This document shows positions 7,980 through 19,846 of a DNA stretch of 64,000 bases, in pieces. The DNA comes from Bryobacterales bacterium KBS 96 (GTDB lineage: Bacteria > Acidobacteriota > Terriglobia > Bryobacterales > Bryobacteraceae). A model generated the notes under the pieces. The model worked only from the letters and a program-made list of their open reading frames with translations. It did not search any database and was not told the origin of the DNA. The stretch's first letter is position 1. Every line of letters begins with the position of its first letter. The stretch spans positions 3,801,304 through 3,865,303 of the forward strand of contig KB906767.1 in assembly GCA_000381625.1 (NCBI GenBank). Reading direction: 5' to 3'. Position numbers and translations under genes: made by a program.

Positions 7980-8202
7980 TGTGGAAAACTGGTGCGACCG
8001 GGAAATCGTTACACCTATTATAGCCTTTTAAATCAATAACTTAAAACCACAACAGATTTGTCTTCCGAACCCTAGCGGCTATGTTATTCTGTTGATTCCG
8101 AAGAACGGAACGGTTCCTCCCCCGGCTGAATTCGAAGCGTTGGCTCGGACCGCCGGGTATCTCCTACAAGTGAAATTCGCTGTTTTCCACAGGTGTGGAA
8201 AA
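7980..8202. other. oriC: Probable origin of replication (oriC), dnaA-proximal part
   Basis: Three DnaA-box-like nonamers of the form TTTTCCACA occur just before dnaA. One is inverted at 7980-7988. The other two, at 8183-8191 and 8194-8202, form a perfect head-to-head palindrome separated by GG. Between them, about 8013-8060 is strongly AT-rich within a GC-rich chromosome, as expected of a DNA-unwinding element. All boxes match TTWTNCACA. Head-to-head boxes immediately before dnaA may also let DnaA repress its own gene. More boxes lie after dnaA. Confidence 0.7.
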
Positions 8203-8255
8203 TGTGTGAGAAACGTGTCCCGTGTCGGTCAAATTCGCATTTGGGGGTAGCGGAC

Positions 8256-9593
8256 GTGAGCACCTTGTGGGAACAGATCAAAGAATGCTTGGCGCGCAAA
8301 TTGAGTCCGGATGCCTACCAGAACTGGATTTCCCGAACGGAACAGGCGGAATACCAGAATGGGCTGTTGGTGGTCAGTGTTCCGGATGAGACGACAAAGA
8401 CCTGGATTGAGCAGGAATACGCGGTTCATATCCGTGGAATTCTTGCAGATCTTGAGACTCCCGTTCAGAAGATCCAATACATACTGGGAGCCCCTCTCCT
8501 GGCCATGGCCGCCCACAATGGGGGCACGAATGGCGCTACAGCTCAATCTATCGCCGAGCCGATGTTTGAAAACTCGGCTTCGTGGCTGAATCCGCGGCTT
8601 ACCTTCGACAGCTATGTCGTCGGATCCTCCAATCAGCTTGCACATGCCGCGGCAATGGCCGTCTCCAAGATGCCTTCCCGCAGCTACAACCCGCTGTTCA
8701 TCTACGGCGCAACCGGCATCGGCAAGACGCATCTGATGCACGCGGTGGGGCAAAACCTCCTGCAGAATTTCAGCGGTCTAAACGTGGTCTACACTTCCAC
8801 GGAAAGATTCGTGAACGAATTAGTTGCCTGCTTGAAGAATGGGCGGATGACGCAGTTTCACCGTCACTATCGCTCAGCGGACGCGCTCCTGATTGACGAT
8901 ATCCATGTGCTCGCCGGCAAGGAGCGGACGCAGGAAGAGTTCTTCCATACCTTCAACGAGTTGCACGAGCATCGCAAGCAGATCGTGATATCGAGCGATT
9001 CGCCGCCGAAAGAGCTCTCGAGCCTTTTCGAGCGTCTCCGGTCGCGATTCGAGTGGGGCCTGATTGTTGACGTCCAACCGCCCGATCTCGAGACAAAAAT
9101 GGCTATCCTCGACAAGAAGGCCGAAACCGAAGGCGTCCACCTACCCGACGATGTCCGGAGCTACATCGCAACGAAGACCAAATCGAACGTACGCGAACTT
9201 GAAGGAGCTCTCACCCGGTTGATCGCTGTTTCTTCGCTCACCGGGGCCCCTATTACCGTAGCCATGGCTCAGCAGACGCTGAAATACATGGGCGCAGCAT
9301 CGGACCGCCGAATTTCGATTGATTCCATTGTCCGGGCGGTGGCCGAAAAGTTCAGTCTTGCCCCGTCGCAGCTCAAGATGAAGAGCAACACCAGGCAGAT
9401 CGCCTACCCGCGACAGATCGCCATGTATTTGTGTAAGGAATTGACCCGTGCTTCTTTGCCGGAGATTGGGCGCGCTTTCGGTGGAAAACATCACACGACG
9501 GTCCTTCACTCGATTCAGAAGATCGAGGACCTCAGACAGCGCGAAGAAGATTTAAACAGGCTTATCCAAAGCCTATTCGACTCATTGCAATAG
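8256..9593 (+). CDS. dnaA: Chromosomal replication initiator DnaA
   Basis: DnaA binds oriC, melts it and helps load the helicase. The chosen start is GTG at 8256, with GGGGGTA seven bases upstream. It gives the usual beginning (VSTLWEQIKECL) and 445 residues. An ATG at 8193 is in frame but lies within a DnaA box. Domain I covers about 1-80, a variable linker follows, and the AAA+ domain has Walker A GATGIGKT at 151-158 and a Walker B segment LLIDDIHVL. The C-terminal domain IV carries the signature helix-turn-helix around GGKHHTTVLHSI. dnaN follows 309 bases later, with its own promoter. Confidence 0.97.
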   Translation: MSTLWEQIKECLARKLSPDAYQNWISRTEQAEYQNGLLVVSVPDETTKTWIEQEYAVHIRGILADLETPVQKIQYILGAPLLAMAAHNGGTNGATAQSIAEPMFENSASWLNPRLTFDSYVVGSSNQLAHAAAMAVSKMPSRSYNPLFIYGATGIGKTHLMHAVGQNLLQNFSGLNVVYTSTERFVNELVACLKNGRMTQFHRHYRSADALLIDDIHVLAGKERTQEEFFHTFNELHEHRKQIVISSDSPPKELSSLFERLRSRFEWGLIVDVQPPDLETKMAILDKKAETEGVHLPDDVRSYIATKTKSNVRELEGALTRLIAVSSLTGAPITVAMAQQTLKYMGAASDRRISIDSIVRAVAEKFSLAPSQLKMKSNTRQIAYPRQIAMYLCKELTRASLPEIGRAFGGKHHTTVLHSIQKIEDLRQREEDLNRLIQSLFDSLQ

Positions 9594-9604
9594 ACTTACA
9601 GGAG

Positions 9605-9760
9605 TTTTCCACAATCACGCCAAAAACCTGGATGTGAAAACGTGTTGGAAACCGGATCAGGGGGCACTCTAGCACCGTCCGACACCTGAAAATCCACAGG
9701 CGGGAAGTGACGGAAGCACTAGGATTTAGTATAATTTAGAGAGAAATCAACATTTCCACA
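9605..9760. other. DnaA-box cluster downstream of dnaA
   Basis: The 309-base gap between dnaA and dnaN holds no gene. It has one good DnaA box, TTTTCCACA (9605-9613), and weaker relatives AAATCCACA (9690-9698) and ATTTCCACA (9752-9760). An AT-rich tract lies at about 9722-9756. It may be the second half of a bipartite origin flanking dnaA. Confidence 0.5.
9707..9735 (+). promoter_or_regulatory. Promoter for dnaN
   Basis: GTGACG (9707-9712) and a perfect TATAAT (9730-9735) are separated by 17 bases. The -35 box matches at four of six positions. It lies 167 bases before the dnaN ATG and among weak DnaA boxes, so transcription may respond to DnaA. Confidence 0.55.
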
Positions 9761-9902
9761 GGACCTACGAATACGAGTCTCTCTTGAGCTTAAAAAATAG
9801 CCTCGTAGAAGTAAGAAGCACAACGGCCGATCCGGCCGGCAGGGTTCCAAGCATTTCTAAAGACGGTTGTAGACTTCACTAGGGAGACACGCAACAACCC
9901 GT

Positions 9903-11012
9903 ATGGAATTTTCGGTTAGCAAGTCCGATCTGGTAAGGGAATTAGGGCTGACGCAGGGAGTTGTCGAAAAGAAGACGACGATTCCGATTCTGTCGAATAT
10001 CTTGATTGAGACTGACAAGGACCAGGTCTGGCTGACGGCAACAGACCTCGAGCTTGGCATCCGTTGTGCGTGCCCGGCGCGGATCAAGAAAGAAGGGGCG
10101 GGCACCATACCCGCACGACGCCTGCTGGACTATGTACGTCTCCTGCCGGACGCGGATGTACAGGTGAAGCTGCAGGAGAACCAGTGGGCGAGCTTAGTTT
10201 GTGGCCGTTCGCGTACCCGGATTGCCGGTATGTCACGGGAGAGCTTTCCGGAACTGCCGCAGATGCCGGACATTCTGGCGAGGCTGCCGCTCGCGATGCT
10301 GTCGCAGATGATCCAGCGCACGATTTTCGCCATCTCGGCCGAGGAGTCACGGTTTACCCTGAACGGCGCGCTGCTGGTTCTACACGATAAGGGGATCATC
10401 ATGGTGGCGACCGACGGACATCGGCTCTCCATGATCGAGCAGGCGGTTCCCCTGGAAGTTGAAGATGTGTATAAGGCTCTCTTGCCCAAAAAGGCGATGC
10501 TCGAGATTTTGAAGCTGGCAAGCGACAATGGCGAAGCGCAAATCGATTTTGCCGGCAATGAGAACCATCTGTTCTTCCAGATCGAGAAACGCCTCCTGCT
10601 GGGCCGGAAGCTGACGGGAAACTTCCCCGATTATGAGCGTGTGCTGCCGAAGGAGCATTCGCATTCGGTTTCAATCGGCCGGGACGATTTGCGTTCCGCT
10701 CTCGAACGCGTGTCGCAGTTCTCGGACGAACGGTCGCGTGCTGTACGCCTGAAAGTGGCGGCGGGCGAGTTGCAAGTGCATTCCTCAATTTCCGAAACCG
10801 GCGAAAGCGAGGAGACCATTCCGGTCGAGTATGGCGGTCCGGATCTGGAGATCGGTTTCAACGCGCAGTATCTGCTGGATTTTCTGCGTGTCGTGGACCA
10901 GACGGAAGTCGAATTTCATTTTAAGGATTCGAACAGCGCGGGCGAATTGCGGCCCAAAGCGGCGCCGGAAGGCGTCAATTACCGCTACGTCGTCATGCCG
11001 ATGCGGATCTGA
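9903..11012 (+). CDS. dnaN: DNA polymerase III beta sliding clamp
   Basis: The beta clamp encircles DNA and tethers the replicative polymerase. The 369 residues have the typical start (MEFSVSKSDLVRELGLTQGV), three repeated clamp domains and the conserved end YVVMPMRI. Length and sequence features fit the family throughout. gyrB follows after 40 bases and recF, often placed between them, is absent. Confidence 0.97.
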   Translation: MEFSVSKSDLVRELGLTQGVVEKKTTIPILSNILIETDKDQVWLTATDLELGIRCACPARIKKEGAGTIPARRLLDYVRLLPDADVQVKLQENQWASLVCGRSRTRIAGMSRESFPELPQMPDILARLPLAMLSQMIQRTIFAISAEESRFTLNGALLVLHDKGIIMVATDGHRLSMIEQAVPLEVEDVYKALLPKKAMLEILKLASDNGEAQIDFAGNENHLFFQIEKRLLLGRKLTGNFPDYERVLPKEHSHSVSIGRDDLRSALERVSQFSDERSRAVRLKVAAGELQVHSSISETGESEETIPVEYGGPDLEIGFNAQYLLDFLRVVDQTEVEFHFKDSNSAGELRPKAAPEGVNYRYVVMPMRI

Positions 11013-11040
11013 GCCCTCGATTGAGGGCACTGGCAAGTGA

Positions 11041-13491
<2,451 letters not shown>

Positions 13492-13559: not shown

Positions 13560-13605
13560 CCGGGCATGCCCGGGCCCTACACGTAGGGGGAGGCTTGTCT
13601 CTCCC
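13560..13605. repeat. Three adjacent GC-rich hairpins after gyrB
   Basis: The palindrome CCGGGC-ATGCCCGG spans 13560-13573. CCCTAC and GTAGGG around a 2-base loop follow at 13575-13588, then GGGAG...CTCCC at about 13588-13605. They lie between gyrB and the vsr relic. The series resembles the other intergenic hairpins in this window and could end gyrB transcription, but there is no T-run. Confidence 0.5.
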
Positions 13606-13748
13606 GCTTTGCCTCAGCTTGATGCGCTGCGCTCAGAAACTTCTTCAGGCGCTTCTTGAGTGTGGAACATCGCGCAGTTCGCATTCCCAGATTTTCAGGC
13701 TCTTCCAACCATTCCGGTGGTGTTGAAAACGCTCGCCGAAGAAGTTCG
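13580..13748 (-). pseudogene. Vsr mismatch endonuclease, C-terminal fragment
   Basis: Directly after the mcrC-like stop codon, one minus-strand frame reads GWKSLKIWECELRD, the conserved C-terminal strand of very-short-patch repair endonucleases (consensus GWRVLxIWECEL). A neighbouring frame continues it with TLKKRLKKFLSAA, the usual last helix. Upstream residues NFFGERFQ also fit Vsr. The catalytic N-terminal part is missing and the frame is broken, so the gene is dead. Vsr normally repairs T:G mismatches caused by deamination at C5-methylated cytosines, which fits the methyltransferase fragment at the other end of the island. Confidence 0.7.
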
Positions 13749-13751
13749 GCC

Positions 13752-15224
13752 TCATGTTGAGATGACCTTCCTGAGTTCATCCGTAAGTCCGGCGGCAATC
13801 CGTTCTACATCAGTAGCCATCGGAACCGCTGTGAGCCACAGATGAACTACCCGCGTACCGACAGTCAGCTCGGCTCGGTGGATCAGCCTCCCTTGCTCAC
13901 GTCGCCAATTCCAGGTATGGGGTGAGCACGGATACGCCAGGCACGCGATCACCCTCGGCGTGCGTCCCAAGTTCGCGTATGCTAGAACCTGGAGTAGATC
14001 ATGCCGATGCTGCTCCCTCAACTCTTCTTCAAGGTTCATCCACGATCGCTGCTGCAACTCCTCCCAGTGGCGTTTGTATTTCGCGTCCACGATGAGCGTC
14101 GTGGATTCCCATTTCAGCCAGATATCCGGCACCAGCGACTTTTGAGAGCCGAGGTAAGGCGGCTCCCAACTAATCGCATGGACCGTTTCTCGCTTCCTTC
14201 CAACGCGGATTTGCCCACCAGTTCGCTGCGCCACAACGCGAAACACCGTCTCGATCCATGCCTCGAAGAACTGATCCATCGACATGGTCCAAGGAATGCC
14301 CTCAAGGTCGCTCAGTCCTGCGAGCCCACGCTCGTCGATCGTCCATTCGATGGCTTGGACGCCGTTCAAGAATGGCGCACTCCGCATGGGTCGCTGACGC
14401 CAGCTGCTCAATGTAGTCGAGGATGGCACGTATTCCGGCACGGTTTGAACTCTGCGCAATAGCCCTTGGCCGAATTCAATCAAGCGATGCACGAACGCAC
14501 CGTGCTCCTTTTGTGTTTCCAATGCCCGCAACTGGCGCTCAACGGTGTGCCGAACCGCACCTTTGAGCAGTCGATCATCGCGCAGGTCTGGAAATGTACA
14601 TGGGATGGAGAGAAACTTCGCGTGCCCCAAGCTCCTGGTCGCGTATTCCGCCCAATGTACCGAACCGCGTGGCGCCTTGCGCGTCTCCGTGGCAAGTTCA
14701 AATCGCCGGTCGAGCGAATCGAGTAGCTCTTTAAGCCTTGTCAAAATCATGAACGACAGCACCCACACTGGTACCCGACGTTCCGAACGGCGGAGGAGCG
14801 GTAACTGGAGCGGTGTTGGGCCGACTCTCCACCCCATCTCTGCCAGCATCCGCCCGATGCCCGCCCACGGAAATCGAGGCTGCACCACAAGCCCATAATC
14901 GAGCCGTGCGGTCGTCGGCGAAATCAAAGGAATGGCGCCGACCGCACTTCCGGCCTGAATTAGCAGATACAAATCGTTCCCGTCGTAATCGCGGTCAATC
15001 CGAACATCCAATCGCGCCATTAGTGAATGATTCTGAACCACGAACTGTTCAGTTAACCGGGCTGCCAGCGTTTGAGGATCGCGCAATCGGCGCAGTTGGA
15101 AGAAATCGATGGCCGACCGACGCGACATCGAATGATCTTCGACCTCAAGACATATTTCCGTTGCCCGCGAGGGCTCCACCAACGGCGCCAATCGTGGTAG
15201 ATGGTGCTTGCGCGTGCGCCTCAC
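13752..15224 (-). CDS. McrC-like restriction endonuclease subunit (DUF2357/PD-(D/E)XK type)
   Basis: This 490-residue protein resembles the nuclease partner of McrB-type ATPases. The C-terminal part contains a PD-(D/E)XK site with Pro366-Asp367 (VPDIWL) and Asp380-Ala-Lys382 (IVDAKYK). A helix with Glu321 (DQFFEAWIE) lies before it. The N-terminal 300 residues would contact the ATPase or DNA. The start is GTG overlapping the last bases of the ATPase gene (GTGA), so translation is probably coupled. No frame lesion is seen. With its ATPase broken the nuclease is probably idle, since McrC-type subunits depend on the motor. Confidence 0.8.
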   Translation of the reverse strand: MRRTRKHHLPRLAPLVEPSRATEICLEVEDHSMSRRSAIDFFQLRRLRDPQTLAARLTEQFVVQNHSLMARLDVRIDRDYDGNDLYLLIQAGSAVGAIPLISPTTARLDYGLVVQPRFPWAGIGRMLAEMGWRVGPTPLQLPLLRRSERRVPVWVLSFMILTRLKELLDSLDRRFELATETRKAPRGSVHWAEYATRSLGHAKFLSIPCTFPDLRDDRLLKGAVRHTVERQLRALETQKEHGAFVHRLIEFGQGLLRRVQTVPEYVPSSTTLSSWRQRPMRSAPFLNGVQAIEWTIDERGLAGLSDLEGIPWTMSMDQFFEAWIETVFRVVAQRTGGQIRVGRKRETVHAISWEPPYLGSQKSLVPDIWLKWESTTLIVDAKYKRHWEELQQRSWMNLEEELREQHRHDLLQVLAYANLGRTPRVIACLAYPCSPHTWNWRREQGRLIHRAELTVGTRVVHLWLTAVPMATDVERIAAGLTDELRKVIST

Positions 15225-15943
15225 AGGCTGCGCAGCTTCTGCAAGTAGCCGCGGATGGGTTCCGCGAACCCACCGACGTAGCCCTGCGCCAGATACTCTT
15301 CGAGCAGCGGAGCTAAATTCACCCGCAGGCTTTGCTTGGCGCGGGCTTCGTCGGATTCCAGGAAGTACGAGTGCCCGGGCACCAGAGGGAAGGCATCATC
15401 CGTTGCGTGCTCGACGAAAATCGAAACCAGTTCCTTGAATGCTTGCCGCATCGTGGCGCAGCCGAGTTGTTCAACGATACTCCTCCGCGGCCACAGCGAA
15501 ACGAACGCGAAGCGCCGCCGCACCGCGACATCGACGATCGCAATACTGCGATCCGCGCTGTTCATCGTTCCCAGGATGTGCAGATTCGTCGGCAGGAAGA
15601 ACGTTCGGTGAAACGGTTCACCGAAGTCATATGGCAGATCGATCTTGCGAGCGGAGCCTACGCTCGCTTCCAGTAAGAAGATCGCCTCGCCCAAAATCTT
15701 GGCTAGGTCAGTGCGATTGATCTCGTCGATATGCAGGAGGTAGCTGTGTTCGGGATCCGAGAGGGCTTGCGCCGCGGCTTCCATCAGGAACCCAGGCGAG
15801 GGTGTGAACCGAAAACCCATTTCCCCGCCTGTCGTCGCCGGTGCCAGGCCGCCGATGAAGTTCTCGTAGGTCGTATTGGGGTGAAACTGGATGCTTCGTC
15901 CCCGGCCGGCGTATTCTTCTCGCAGAAGCTCTGTGGCGATCAT
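15221..15943 (-). CDS. McrB-like AAA+ ATPase, C-terminal half (split by frameshift)
   Basis: The 240 residues hold the second half of an McrB-family AAA+ domain. Walker B is LLHIDEINRTD (Asp73, Glu74). The McrB signature GTMNSADRSI is at about 126-134, and the arginine-finger region VAVRRRF follows. A P-loop is absent: the first residue is the Met that would follow GPPGTGKT. Those residues are encoded just upstream in the same frame but read as RRAPAKQ in the frame of the preceding gene. Adding one C on the minus strand near 15963 would join this part to the 250-residue gene into one protein of about 490 residues. The apparent ATGA overlap is therefore a by-product of the shift. Confidence 0.85.
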   Translation of the reverse strand: MIATELLREEYAGRGRSIQFHPNTTYENFIGGLAPATTGGEMGFRFTPSPGFLMEAAAQALSDPEHSYLLHIDEINRTDLAKILGEAIFLLEASVGSARKIDLPYDFGEPFHRTFFLPTNLHILGTMNSADRSIAIVDVAVRRRFAFVSLWPRRSIVEQLGCATMRQAFKELVSIFVEHATDDAFPLVPGHSYFLESDEARAKQSLRVNLAPLLEEYLAQGYVGGFAEPIRGYLQKLRSL

Positions 15944-16692
15944 TGTTTTGCCGGTGCCCGGCGGCCCTGAACAATGACGTATCGCCGGTTCGCAAGCAAA
16001 TCGGCAACCTGCGAGCGTTCAACCGTTAGCATCAGGTGGTCGAACCAAGCCCCTCGGATCGATTCATAGCTTACCAGGCACGGTGCGATGGGTCGATACC
16101 CGCGTTCCTCAAATAGCAGGTCTATGAACGCGGTCACCGCGGCGTCTGTACCTGCCTGATTCGATGTTGGGCAGTAAAGGGCGTAGACCACTTTGCCGTA
16201 TCGCTCAAATACTTCTCTGTACGCCGGCCAAGCCTGTTTCACGGTGTCCGGAACCGGCACGTCGGTGCGCGTCGGGTCCTGTTTTGCCCAGGCTACAAGT
16301 GATCCGTTGCCATACTCACGGTTCAGCCACGAACTAATTGCCTGGGCCTTCCGAGCGTGACCAGGTCGCCCCAGAATGGCTTCGTCGGGGCTCAACCCTT
16401 GCGTCCCGACGACCAACCCAACGAGAGAAGGTGCATCCGGAACGGGAAATATCACGAACGAAAGGCCGCTATATGGTCCCGAAGATGGGTTCGACGGATG
16501 GATGTAGGCTGCAAATGGGACACCCGAGTCCGCGCTCATCCCCGGTGCCCGCCGCGTCACCGCCTTCGCTGCCTCCTTCGGATAGCGGCCTTCCGGGCTA
16601 CCGAACAGCGCTTCGAAGGCTGCTTTGTTTCGCTCTGACCAAGCATCCTGCGTTGGAGAGTGGATGATTTCGAATAGAGGAGCAAGGCTCAT
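15940..16692 (-). CDS. McrB-like ATPase, N-terminal half (split by frameshift)
   Basis: The 250 residues contain an N-terminal domain probably used for target recognition. It includes YSGLSFVIFPVPD and GTQGLSPDEAILGRPGHARK, which I cannot assign to a named family with confidence. It ends at RRYVIVQG, the beta strand that enters the P-loop of McrB-type ATPases. After that glycine the frame is lost, giving RRAPAKQ and a stop. With one extra base the sequence would read GPPGTGKTM and run on into the next gene. Alone this half has no known activity. It is the first intact gene after the methyltransferase fragment. Confidence 0.8.
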   Translation of the reverse strand: MSLAPLFEIIHSPTQDAWSERNKAAFEALFGSPEGRYPKEAAKAVTRRAPGMSADSGVPFAAYIHPSNPSSGPYSGLSFVIFPVPDAPSLVGLVVGTQGLSPDEAILGRPGHARKAQAISSWLNREYGNGSLVAWAKQDPTRTDVPVPDTVKQAWPAYREVFERYGKVVYALYCPTSNQAGTDAAVTAFIDLLFEERGYRPIAPCLVSYESIRGAWFDHLMLTVERSQVADLLANRRYVIVQGRRAPAKQ

Positions 16693-16754
16693 ACGCTACC
16701 AAGGTCAGAGGTTAACACCAGTACTCCCGTATAGCGCAAATTGGCCGGGTAGTG

Positions 16755-16947
16755 TCAAGGATTTTGTGCTCCATTTCCCGCCAGTGATAAGTCCTGGCAA
16801 GGAAACGACGTCACGGCTCCAACATCTTCGATTCGCAAACTTTCAGCTCTTTGGGTCAACGTCATTGGCGAACAGGCATTCCCAGTCGCTCTCTAAGCCA
16901 GCCCGCGCCATTTCGCCGCCGGCAAAGAATTCATAGAACGTCGGCAT
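16755..16947 (-). pseudogene. C5-cytosine DNA methyltransferase fragment (dcm-like)
   Basis: From an ATG at 16947 one frame reads FYEFFAGGEMARAGLE then WECLFAND and stops. This is motif I (FAGGGM-R) and the following region of C5 methyltransferases. A second frame a little further on reads SFPCQDLSLAGNG, motif IV with the catalytic PCQ cysteine, then stops. In intact enzymes about 40 residues separate these motifs. The gap, a frame change and the absence of motifs VI-X mark a deletion relic of about 190 bases. The remaining part of the 373-base gap up to 17065 holds only a possible GGAG ribosome site before the ATG. Confidence 0.75.
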
Positions 16948-17065
16948 TACGATTCTGTCTCCGGAAAGTCCCCGCCATCCGATTATCGGCGAATCGCGTG
17001 AAACGACGGGCTTACTTCGCCCGCGCCATACAGGTTATTTTCGCCTTGCAAGTAAACTAATTTTA

Positions 17066-19846
17066 ATGACGGCTCGGGTGCTTGTTCTCTCGCTCTATCC
17101 TTGCATTGTGTTCGCCGCCATGAATTCGCCGGCCGGTCCTTCGGCCAATCCCGACACCCCGCTTGATCGCGCCGTCAAAGAATTCAAGACCGAAACAGAG
17201 GCCCTGGGCATTCGTCCGGGGCAGATCAATTCGCAAGCCGGACCGCCCACCCGCAAGCTCGCCTGGCACGGGCGTGTCTTCGAAAATTTCCGTAACGATA
17301 TGCTGGATGCCGTACCCCACGAGATTAAGCAGCGCGGCGAAGATAAGTCGCTCCTGCAGCGAAATCAGTTTGGCTTCAATGTCTCGGGGCCGCTAATCAT
17401 TCCGAAAGTCTTAAGCTCGCGAAGCAATACGTTCTTCTCGCTGTCCTACGAGGGCGTCCGCGAGCGGATTGCCCGCACATACCTCAGGACCGTGCCGACA
17501 CTCCCCGAACGCTTGGGCGACTTCTCGAACACTGTGGATCAGGCGGGAAATACGCTGCCGGTTTACGATCCGGCGGCAACCCGTCCGAACCCCAACTACG
17601 ATGCCAGCCAGGCCGTCTCGTCTACGAATCTTCAGTATTTACGCGACCCTTTTCCGGGCAACAAAATACCCTCCGGACGCATTGACAGCGTGTCACGCGA
17701 GGCTCTATCCCTTTATCCCGCGCCCAACACAAACGTCGGCCCCTTCTTCCAAAACAACCTGTTTATCAACTCGCCGGCCACGAATCTGGCGGATGGCTTT
17801 CTTGGTAATGTGGATCAGACTTTTGGCAGCAAGCACCGCCTTAGCCTCGATTTCAATTTGTCGGATGGGTTTTTGGGGTCGCCGCGCTGGTTTTCCACGG
17901 CGGCGAATCCCGGGGCGCCGGATCGCGATTTTCAAACGCGCAAAGGCTCCGTCCAATACGTTCTGACGGTGTCGCCAAAGACTGTTGAAACTGCCACGTT
18001 TAAGGCCTCGATGAATACGTCGCGGTCCACGACGGGCAGCGATACGCCGTTTCCGGTCTACCAAATCGATCCCTACGTGAGTTTTGGAACCGGATTTCCG
18101 GAATCCCGTATCGCGCGAAACACGTTCGATTTGAGCGATGGAATTTCCACGCGACGCGGCAAGCACTCGCTGAGTCTTTATGCCGAATTTGCGCAGTCTC
18201 AAGTGAATGTGTTCTGGCCGCAGTATCCGTCCGGCTATTACAACTTTTCGTCGGGTCTTACGAGTCTTCCCGGCATTATTAACACCGGCCATGCCTTTGC
18301 GAGTTTCCTGCTGGGAGATCCCGATTATGCGGAGCGTACGTTCGTCACGGCGCCATCTTATTTCCGCCAAACGTCAGCGTTGTTAAGCCTGCGCGACAAG
18401 TACGAGATATCGAAAGAGTTCAGCATCACGGTCGGCGTGAACCTGAATCGCCATGGCGCCCGCACCGAGAAGTACGATCGGCAGAGCACGGTCGACCCGG
18501 CCGCAATCAATCCGGCGAACGGCCGGCCGGGAGCGCTTGTGTTCGCCGGCCGCAATGGCATCAGCGATGGTATGCGGCCGGCGGTCTATAGCGTTAGCCC
18601 CAGCGCGAGCGTCGTCTGGAATCCAGGCGGAAGTTCGAATACGGTCGTCCGCGCCGATTACGCCCGCTCCCACCAGCAGATGCCGATCTACTCGGGGCAA
18701 TGGGCGACCCAGGGGTTCAACTCGCGCGAAGCCATCATCTCGCAAAATAATCAGCTCACGCCGGCTGTCGATCTCGACGCGGGACTCCCGCCGCTGCCGC
18801 ACGCCTTACCGGATCTGCGCCCCGACGCCGCGAACGGAGCTGTCGCCGATTGGATGGACCTCACCGGCCGCGAAGCGGTCTATCAATCGGCCTCAGCCTC
18901 GATCGAACGTCAGTTGCCGTTCTCGCTGGTGGTGACGGTGGGCGTCTATTATCAAGGCGGCCGCGATCTCTACGTAGGCAACGGTTCAGCCAATCCCAAC
19001 GCGATCAGCCCGGATGCGCTCGCCTATCGCGATCTTCTCAATGACCAGAGCTTCAGCGCCTCTTTACGGCCCTACTCGCAATACACCAGCTTCGATTTGT
19101 TCGATCTCTACCCCGCCGGCCGGTATCAGCGCGATGCCGCCTATTTGCATGTGGAGAAGCGCGCGTCAAATGGACTCTCCGTCCGTGCTTCGTATGAGTT
19201 CGGTAAGCAGCTTGACGACTACTCCGGCCCGTACGGGATTCAGGATCTTTTCAATCGTCAAAACGATTGGGCGCAGACGCCGTACAGCGCTCCGCAGACG
19301 CTGCAGGTGAGCTACGTCTACGAGCTCCCAATCGGAGCGAACAAACCATTCTTGAATTATTCGGATTGGCGGCGTCCCCTGGTAACGGGGTGGTCGATCA
19401 GCGGCGCGGCTTACATGGACGACGGATCTCCGCTCGCGCTCCATCCCGCGTTCAATAATACGGGGGGCGTCATCAGCGGCCTCACGGTCAATTCCGTGCC
19501 CGGCGTGGATGCGAACGTTCCGAACCCGGGCCCGGATCTGTGGTTCAATCCAGCGGCATTCGATCAGCCGCCGGACTTTACGCTTGGCACGGCTTCGCGA
19601 ACCAGCCCGACGCTACGTAACCCCGGGAATAATAATTTCGATCTGAGCGTCGCCAAGCGCCTGCAGATTGGACTCGATCGCTCTATGGAGTTCACCGCGA
19701 CCGGGTTCAATTTCATCAATCACGGCGACTGGAACGATCCGGACACATCTATCGGCCCGGCAAGCGCGCCGAACCTCGACGCTGGCAGGATTATTGGTTC
19801 GCATGGCGGCCGGGTCATTCAACTGGGATTGACATTCAATTTTTGA
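17066..19846 (+). CDS. Oar-like TonB-dependent receptor homologue lacking plug and regulatory domain
   Basis: The 926 residues resemble the barrel part of acidobacterial Oar/TonB-dependent receptors. Typical segments are WHGRVFENFRNDMLDA, LLQRNQFGFNVSGPLIIP and NTFFSLSYEG, followed by many alternating strands and an aromatic C-terminus LGLTFNF for outer-membrane insertion. A short signal peptide is likely (hydrophobic residues 4-18). Family members normally begin with a carboxypeptidase-like beta-sandwich of about 100 residues and a plug domain. Here only about 60 residues precede the barrel. It may be a truncated gene or a plugless porin. Its stop overlaps the next gene's possible start. No ribosome-binding site is clear. 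Confidence 0.8.
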   Translation: MTARVLVLSLYPCIVFAAMNSPAGPSANPDTPLDRAVKEFKTETEALGIRPGQINSQAGPPTRKLAWHGRVFENFRNDMLDAVPHEIKQRGEDKSLLQRNQFGFNVSGPLIIPKVLSSRSNTFFSLSYEGVRERIARTYLRTVPTLPERLGDFSNTVDQAGNTLPVYDPAATRPNPNYDASQAVSSTNLQYLRDPFPGNKIPSGRIDSVSREALSLYPAPNTNVGPFFQNNLFINSPATNLADGFLGNVDQTFGSKHRLSLDFNLSDGFLGSPRWFSTAANPGAPDRDFQTRKGSVQYVLTVSPKTVETATFKASMNTSRSTTGSDTPFPVYQIDPYVSFGTGFPESRIARNTFDLSDGISTRRGKHSLSLYAEFAQSQVNVFWPQYPSGYYNFSSGLTSLPGIINTGHAFASFLLGDPDYAERTFVTAPSYFRQTSALLSLRDKYEISKEFSITVGVNLNRHGARTEKYDRQSTVDPAAINPANGRPGALVFAGRNGISDGMRPAVYSVSPSASVVWNPGGSSNTVVRADYARSHQQMPIYSGQWATQGFNSREAIISQNNQLTPAVDLDAGLPPLPHALPDLRPDAANGAVADWMDLTGREAVYQSASASIERQLPFSLVVTVGVYYQGGRDLYVGNGSANPNAISPDALAYRDLLNDQSFSASLRPYSQYTSFDLFDLYPAGRYQRDAAYLHVEKRASNGLSVRASYEFGKQLDDYSGPYGIQDLFNRQNDWAQTPYSAPQTLQVSYVYELPIGANKPFLNYSDWRRPLVTGWSISGAAYMDDGSPLALHPAFNNTGGVISGLTVNSVPGVDANVPNPGPDLWFNPAAFDQPPDFTLGTASRTSPTLRNPGNNNFDLSVAKRLQIGLDRSMEFTATGFNFINHGDWNDPDTSIGPASAPNLDAGRIIGSHGGRVIQLGLTFNF

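Follow-up and report, generated by a model that had tools for sequence, protein, structure and literature searches.

How does a genome come to hold an McrBC restriction pair that lies between the remains of a methyltransferase gene and a Vsr gene: did one four-gene system decay, or did parts of different systems come together? We address this question for a block of genes downstream of gyrB in a 64,000-nucleotide stretch of the Bryobacterales bacterium KBS 96 genome (contig KB906767.1, positions 3,801,304 to 3,865,303), which we call the window and number from its first letter. Read on the minus strand, the block holds a relic of a C5-methyltransferase (dcm) gene, McrB in two frames, McrC and a relic of the tail of a Vsr gene. 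On balance, we think it probable that McrBC is a stand-alone, Type IV-like cassette that inserted into, or took the place of, the middle part of a type II dcm-endonuclease-Vsr module and then lost McrB.

The block is missing from a same-genus genome

In the window, the block is flanked by gyrB (11053-13491) and a gene for a 926-aa outer-membrane beta-barrel protein (17066-19846, Pfam); in the same-genus genome G001, these two genes are adjacent. When both flanks were compared to L112 by blastn and local alignment, homology to G001 stopped at about position 13567 and restarted at 17026, leaving about 13 bp between the homology ends as compared to 3458 bp in the window. The unit absent from G001 is thus 13568-17025. 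The gyrB genes of the two genomes are 97% identical; G001, the sole same-genus genome compared, is 88% complete, and one contig spans the site. An earlier model-made reading of this DNA (the original prediction) had placed the block at 13580-16947, which is the right location for a slightly larger unit, and its order, strand and coordinates for the four parts agree with our direct comparison of frames and alignments. The genes dnaA, dnaN and gyrB are consecutive at 8193-13491, and the block is therefore near a likely replication-origin gene cluster.

McrC is an intact frame and McrB is broken at Walker A

The McrC gene (13752-15224, minus strand) is an intact frame of 490 aa that matches PF10117 above the cut-off (1.8e-9), has the motif PD...DAK and aligns at 80% to the McrC of a relative, locus L021. 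The window therefore has both features of the McrC of an McrBC Type IV system, the PF10117 domain and the PD-(D/E)XK nuclease centre. With the intact 494-aa McrB of L021 as the reference, we found that the window McrB frame breaks at the Walker A codons. The N-terminal part (250 aa, 15940-16692, minus strand), a putative DNA-recognition domain with the lead-in to Walker A, aligns at 75% to L021 McrB residues 1-243; the C-terminal part (240 aa, 15221-15943, minus strand, other frame), which is the AAA+ motor without Walker A, aligns at 82% to residues 243-490. The C-terminal half matches Pfam AAA_5 above the cut-off (3.8e-6) and the NCBIfam McrB model PRK11331 at 5e-27 (94.7 bits as compared to a cut-off of 637), and a search with the McrB profile finds E. 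coli McrB chains (9e-49). Walker A is intact and conserved in an alignment of 25 relatives. A working AAA+ motor has Walker A in frame, which the window McrB does not; no activity is expected of an McrBC with a broken motor, and the frame break probably leaves the window copy inactive now.

A programmed frameshift in McrB was considered and judged less likely, since eight relatives examined pass Walker A in one frame, which makes ordinary loss of frame the simpler account. Splits or truncations of McrB or McrC, at differing places, also occur in L028 (G014), L045 (G027), L027, L044 (G029), L058 (G010) and L057 (G220).

The flanking relics fit the two ends of a dcm-endonuclease-Vsr module

The dcm relic (16767-16947, minus strand) lies in two frames. 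Frame 1 is the gene start, MPTFYEFFAGGEMARAGLESDWECLFANDVDPK, at 16947-16849, and frame 2 runs IEDVG...SFPCQDLSLAGNGA. Together they cover roughly residues 1-84 of a G027 dcm, less a gap of ~12 residues from one stretch to the next and another of 13 within the second. The best match, found in two segments, is to the intact G027 dcm (79% over 33 aa); the dcm of G014 matches at 70% over 30 aa, and that of the NgoMIV module described below shows no meaningful similarity. None of 1000 dinucleotide shuffles of the flank reached the score of the relic (60.8 bits as compared to 26.6 for the best shuffle). The later part of the dcm gene was not found in the block.

The Vsr C-terminal relic (GWKSLKIWECELRD...) is at 13577-13755, minus strand, where 13716-13636 is the aligned part; the remainder, in a second frame, and both limits, 13755 and 13577, were judged by eye. 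The relic fits the Vsr of G027 (52% over 27 aa, 33.5 bits) and that of G050 (50% over 26 aa, 32.7 bits) about equally, and its 33.5 bits compare to 22.7 for the best of 1000 dinucleotide shuffles of the flank. The gene identities and the decayed state given by the original prediction are thus upheld, by profiles and L021 for McrB and McrC, and by intact-gene comparison and shuffles for the relics.

Intact modules with the same order as the window relics are present in relatives: dcm-DUF4928-Vsr twice in G027 and dcm-NgoMIV-Vsr once in G050. The module of G014 has the order Vsr-dcm-GIY-YIG. In the window, dcm and Vsr are likewise on one strand and in module order, and modules of the G027 and G050 kinds are the likely source of the relics, from which the window differs in that it keeps the two ends only, with no endonuclease found between them.

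Relatives carry McrBC without a methyltransferase or Vsr neighbour

We found McrC in 16 of 101 relatives, in 31 of 399 genomes of the class and at 39 loci in a contig search (the counts overlap). In the McrC tree (37 rows), the window pairs with L021 (support 98/90), where McrBC stands alone in a genome (G163 / G433) that has no match to PF00145, the C5-methyltransferase family. That genome (G163) has one Vsr match. No intact dcm or Vsr was found beside McrBC at any of the 39 loci when they were searched at E 0.01 with five queries for each gene, although some contigs end nearby; the exceptions near McrC are a Vsr relic in L048 and, in L096 (G050), a dcm-like frame and Vsr ~10 kb beyond McrB. 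PF00145 is absent even at E 1 from 11 of the 16 McrC genomes and present in five. In sets that overlap with these, it is present in 5/17 genomes (which include the 16), 5/19 and 9/31, and absent from 14/19 and 22/31; the matches in G182, G407, G411 and G423 are short frames and possibly fragments. The dcm-free loci and the PF00145 counts are what would be seen if, as in a Type IV system, the relatives' McrBC needs no cognate methyltransferase.

Among the matches listed for 44 flanking proteins, in which methyltransferase families other than C5 were also looked for, the families are mostly housekeeping, and some defence models each match a single member: an NgoMIV nuclease, AbiE and a handful of others. 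In the class sample of 399 genomes, PF10117 was found in 41 and Vsr in 157, and among the matches listed (44 and 148 contigs) no PF10117 lies near a Vsr, the one shared contig having its hits 636 kb apart; the PF10117 profile misses part of the McrC family, such as the members in G024 and G163, which were found by protein query only. A plasmid search with McrC gave no match. L043, titled Nevskia soli, also has McrC.

These results bear on whether the four parts once formed a single type II system of the LlaJI or PcaI kind, where dcm would protect the host, the McrB-like and McrC-like pair would cut unmethylated sites and Vsr would repair deamination, with decay from the ends first. The original prediction had proposed such a joint LlaJI-like system. 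Order and orientation suit one operon, and the McrC stop overlaps the Vsr reading frame. The LlaJI (PMC1459862) and PcaI (PMC8989522) systems have C5-methyltransferase gene(s) adjoining McrB-like and McrC-like genes, and certain branches of McrB show linkage to methyltransferases (PMC11090510). In contrast, the methyltransferase in the window is a relic, none was detected beside the McrBC of close relatives, and the nuclease outlived the methyltransferase; Vsr goes unmentioned in the excerpted text of the PcaI paper (PMC8989522). The search of relatives that the original prediction had proposed, for an intact locus with C5 methyltransferase, McrB, McrC and Vsr in this order, found none; relatives with McrBC alone, which it had named as grounds for giving up the joint system, are largely what we observe.

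Intact relatives are most likely modification-dependent

Like E. coli McrBC, a Type IV system, the window has an McrB AAA+ motor gene and an McrC PD-(D/E)XK nuclease gene in one operon that stands alone in relatives; it differs in that its McrB is broken and that no solved structure in the PDB is detectably similar in sequence to its McrB N-domain. No consistent Pfam family was found for the N-domain over 25 members. The full-length McrB model of L021 (mean predicted local distance difference test score, pLDDT, 87.9) gave a Foldseek match to McrB structures at 5.9e-17. The window N-domain model (mean pLDDT 89.2) had no Foldseek match better than E 0.63, and when VIA was run over the Foldseek candidates, the top one was 8ik8, an McrBC DNA-binding domain (root-mean-square deviation 3.8, 137 residues aligned), with a Z of 6.8 that is above the next (5.6) and lies below 8, where VIA cautions that a match can mean a common arrangement. 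We take 8ik8 to be a chain from E. coli McrB. Because of the stand-alone context and the structural matches to McrB, the intact relatives are most likely modification-dependent Type IV nucleases.

Two other McrC genes abut remains of such a module

At 2 of the 39 loci, in addition to the window, McrC touches remains of a restriction-modification (RM) module of this kind. In L048 (same contig as L131 of G423), the DNA directly after the McrC stop shares 81% identity with an internal part of the G050 NgoMIV gene, and the DNA that comes next shares 82% with the end of G050 Vsr; the NgoMIV and Vsr pieces are both broken, and the contig does not reach the McrB side. In L023, a stretch homologous to the G050 module begins ~70 bp past McrC with the final 28 bp of dcm and takes in the NgoMIV gene, which is an open frame of 289 aa with 78% protein identity to that of G050 (Pfam 4.5e-90). 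We found no Vsr alongside it and no PF00145 match in its genome (G435). The L023 endonuclease gene (L023:8558-9424) is thus one without a visible methyltransferase in G435, and a 5-residue gap relative to the G050 protein suggests that the enzyme may be inactive. L023 and L048 belong to a clade of four with L022 and L024, in which no such remains were detected, and the two junctions may go back to one event.

McrBC seems to have remained under selection after dcm and Vsr were lost

To compare the decay of the parts, we used substitution ratios and indels. For the pair of window and L021, the ratio of nonsynonymous to synonymous substitution (dN/dS) comes to 0.083 (McrC), 0.080 (N-terminal part of McrB) and 0.078 (C-terminal part), as compared to 0.05-0.12 for other pairs, with synonymous sites near saturation. 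The two branches are of similar length in the McrC tree (0.16 for the window, 0.17 for L021). Counted by eye, there is one indel in 2941 bp of McrBC as compared to about four in 360 bp of the relics (binomial 0.0006, or 0.005 without the least sure one). McrBC has been under purifying selection, and this seems to have continued after dcm and Vsr were lost, so that the methyltransferase seems to have died first; the McrB break seems to be recent, unless it is an error. Selection on McrBC after the loss of dcm argues against a nuclease that needed dcm for self-protection. The original prediction had the system disabled in a safe order; as McrBC seems to have outlived the methyltransferase, that order would be reversed.

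Insertion into a module is the probable origin of the block

We infer that an McrBC cassette entered the module or replaced its middle, which would have left the dcm start upstream and the Vsr end downstream. In the intact pair, the McrB N-domain would read a modified base, the AAA+ ring would travel along the DNA and McrC would cut. Loss of the C5 methyltransferase would also take away a possible source of the McrBC target in the host, and McrB would later have been broken at Walker A. Fukuda et al., 2008 (PMC2614495) reported that E. coli McrBC can be lethal to cells on becoming methylated, and described mcrBC homologues inserted in RM complexes. The window resembles those cases as described in that McrBC lies within an RM gene complex; it differs in that the module is reduced to two relics and that it comes with an empty site and a stand-alone sister for comparison.

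PF00145 is rarer in genomes with McrC (8/31) than in the others (168/368, counted among the matches listed; Fisher p 0.038, ignoring phylogeny), where the two class-wide searches are taken as drawing the same 399 genomes. McrBC is broken in 6/17 genomes with PF00145 and in 4/36 without it (Fisher p 0.058, judged by eye and ignoring phylogeny), in a table that omits rows at contig ends (such as L034, L043, L048/G423, L051 and L053), merges same-genome records by eye and counts G355, with one internal stop, as intact. The data thus lean weakly towards a conflict between McrBC and methylation as the driver. The host genome has a second Vsr-dcm pair with open frames at G000:C1 ~2108702-2110437 (L097:6703-8438), for which G001 yielded no counterpart: PF00145 did not match there, and Vsr matches reached E 0.11 at best. 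This second pair would be a reason for McrBC being off.

Several results, together with the poor Foldseek score and low VIA Z of the N-domain, weigh against the relics or against this explanation of the block. Neither relic alone matches a Pfam or NCBIfam family at E 0.1; genome-wide C5-methylase and Vsr profile searches at E 1 listed other places in the host genome and missed both relics, and PADLOC gave methyltransferase matches only from the hand-joined two-frame dcm relic and none from the Vsr relic treated likewise. The identification of both relics therefore depends on comparing them directly with intact genes. A lack of significant profile matches had been named by the original prediction as telling against its relics, and this lack is real for profiles but does not extend to the direct comparison. 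We found no NgoMIV, DUF4928 or GIY-YIG endonuclease between the relics (tblastn at 1e-3 on L001, 13492-16724; other endonuclease families were not searched), and an NgoMIV profile search of the host genome (G000) gave no match. Because none was found, no one source module is indicated, and the dcm and Vsr relics could have separate origins. No target repeat was noticed at the junctions of the block, and no pre-insertion state was seen downstream of gyrB. In addition, 11 genomes have a PF00145 match together with an apparently intact McrBC, which indicates that the conflict is not general.

Alternative explanations

The missing endonuclease is what would be seen if the dcm relic, McrBC and the Vsr relic were separate scraps that arrived independently, without any insertion into one module, at a DNA-collecting site downstream of gyrB. 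The unequal resemblance of the relics also suits this explanation, as the dcm relic resembles the DUF4928-type module and the Vsr relic shows no clear preference between the DUF4928 and NgoMIV types. However, strand and order of the relics are those found in intact modules, G001 lacks the entire block, and such a module also adjoins the end of McrC at two other loci; we hold independent arrival to be unlikely.

We also give a low probability to an McrB that is intact in the living cell, the break being an assembly or sequencing error or, less likely, read through; this would be compatible with any of the other explanations. There is a single break within 2.9 kb that is otherwise under purifying selection. 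In contrast, the conserved window genes that can be compared with G001 and five family genomes align in single frames, which indicates that indel errors are not rampant here, and general sequencing error is not favoured.

The single four-gene system is not supported, and we hold it to be unlikely, with no intact dcm or Vsr beside McrBC at the 39 loci, no PF10117 close to Vsr among the class-sample matches listed, 11 of 16 McrC genomes without PF00145 and an McrBC that was kept under selection past the decay of dcm.

Implications for McrBC in the Bryobacterales

The insertion of McrBC into a module may have a wider form, in which, repeatedly in Bryobacterales and their kin, an arriving McrBC cassette ousts the methyltransferase side of a dcm-R-Vsr module, and the landing itself removes a methylation that would make McrBC suicidal. 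The three junctions (window, L023 and L048), the smaller share of genomes with a C5 methylase and the more frequent breakage of McrBC where a C5 methylase is present hint at such recurrence, which we put forward as a tentative and rather doubtful extension. McrBC in the wreckage of RM systems is already in print; the new material here is the clean empty site and the parallel junctions. With its empty site, its stand-alone sister and two parallel junctions, the locus offers a readable case of the proposed competition between methylation-dependent nucleases and methylating RM systems. Recurrent displacement, if real, would tie the architecture of genomes to the host-killing model of McrBC (PMC2614495).

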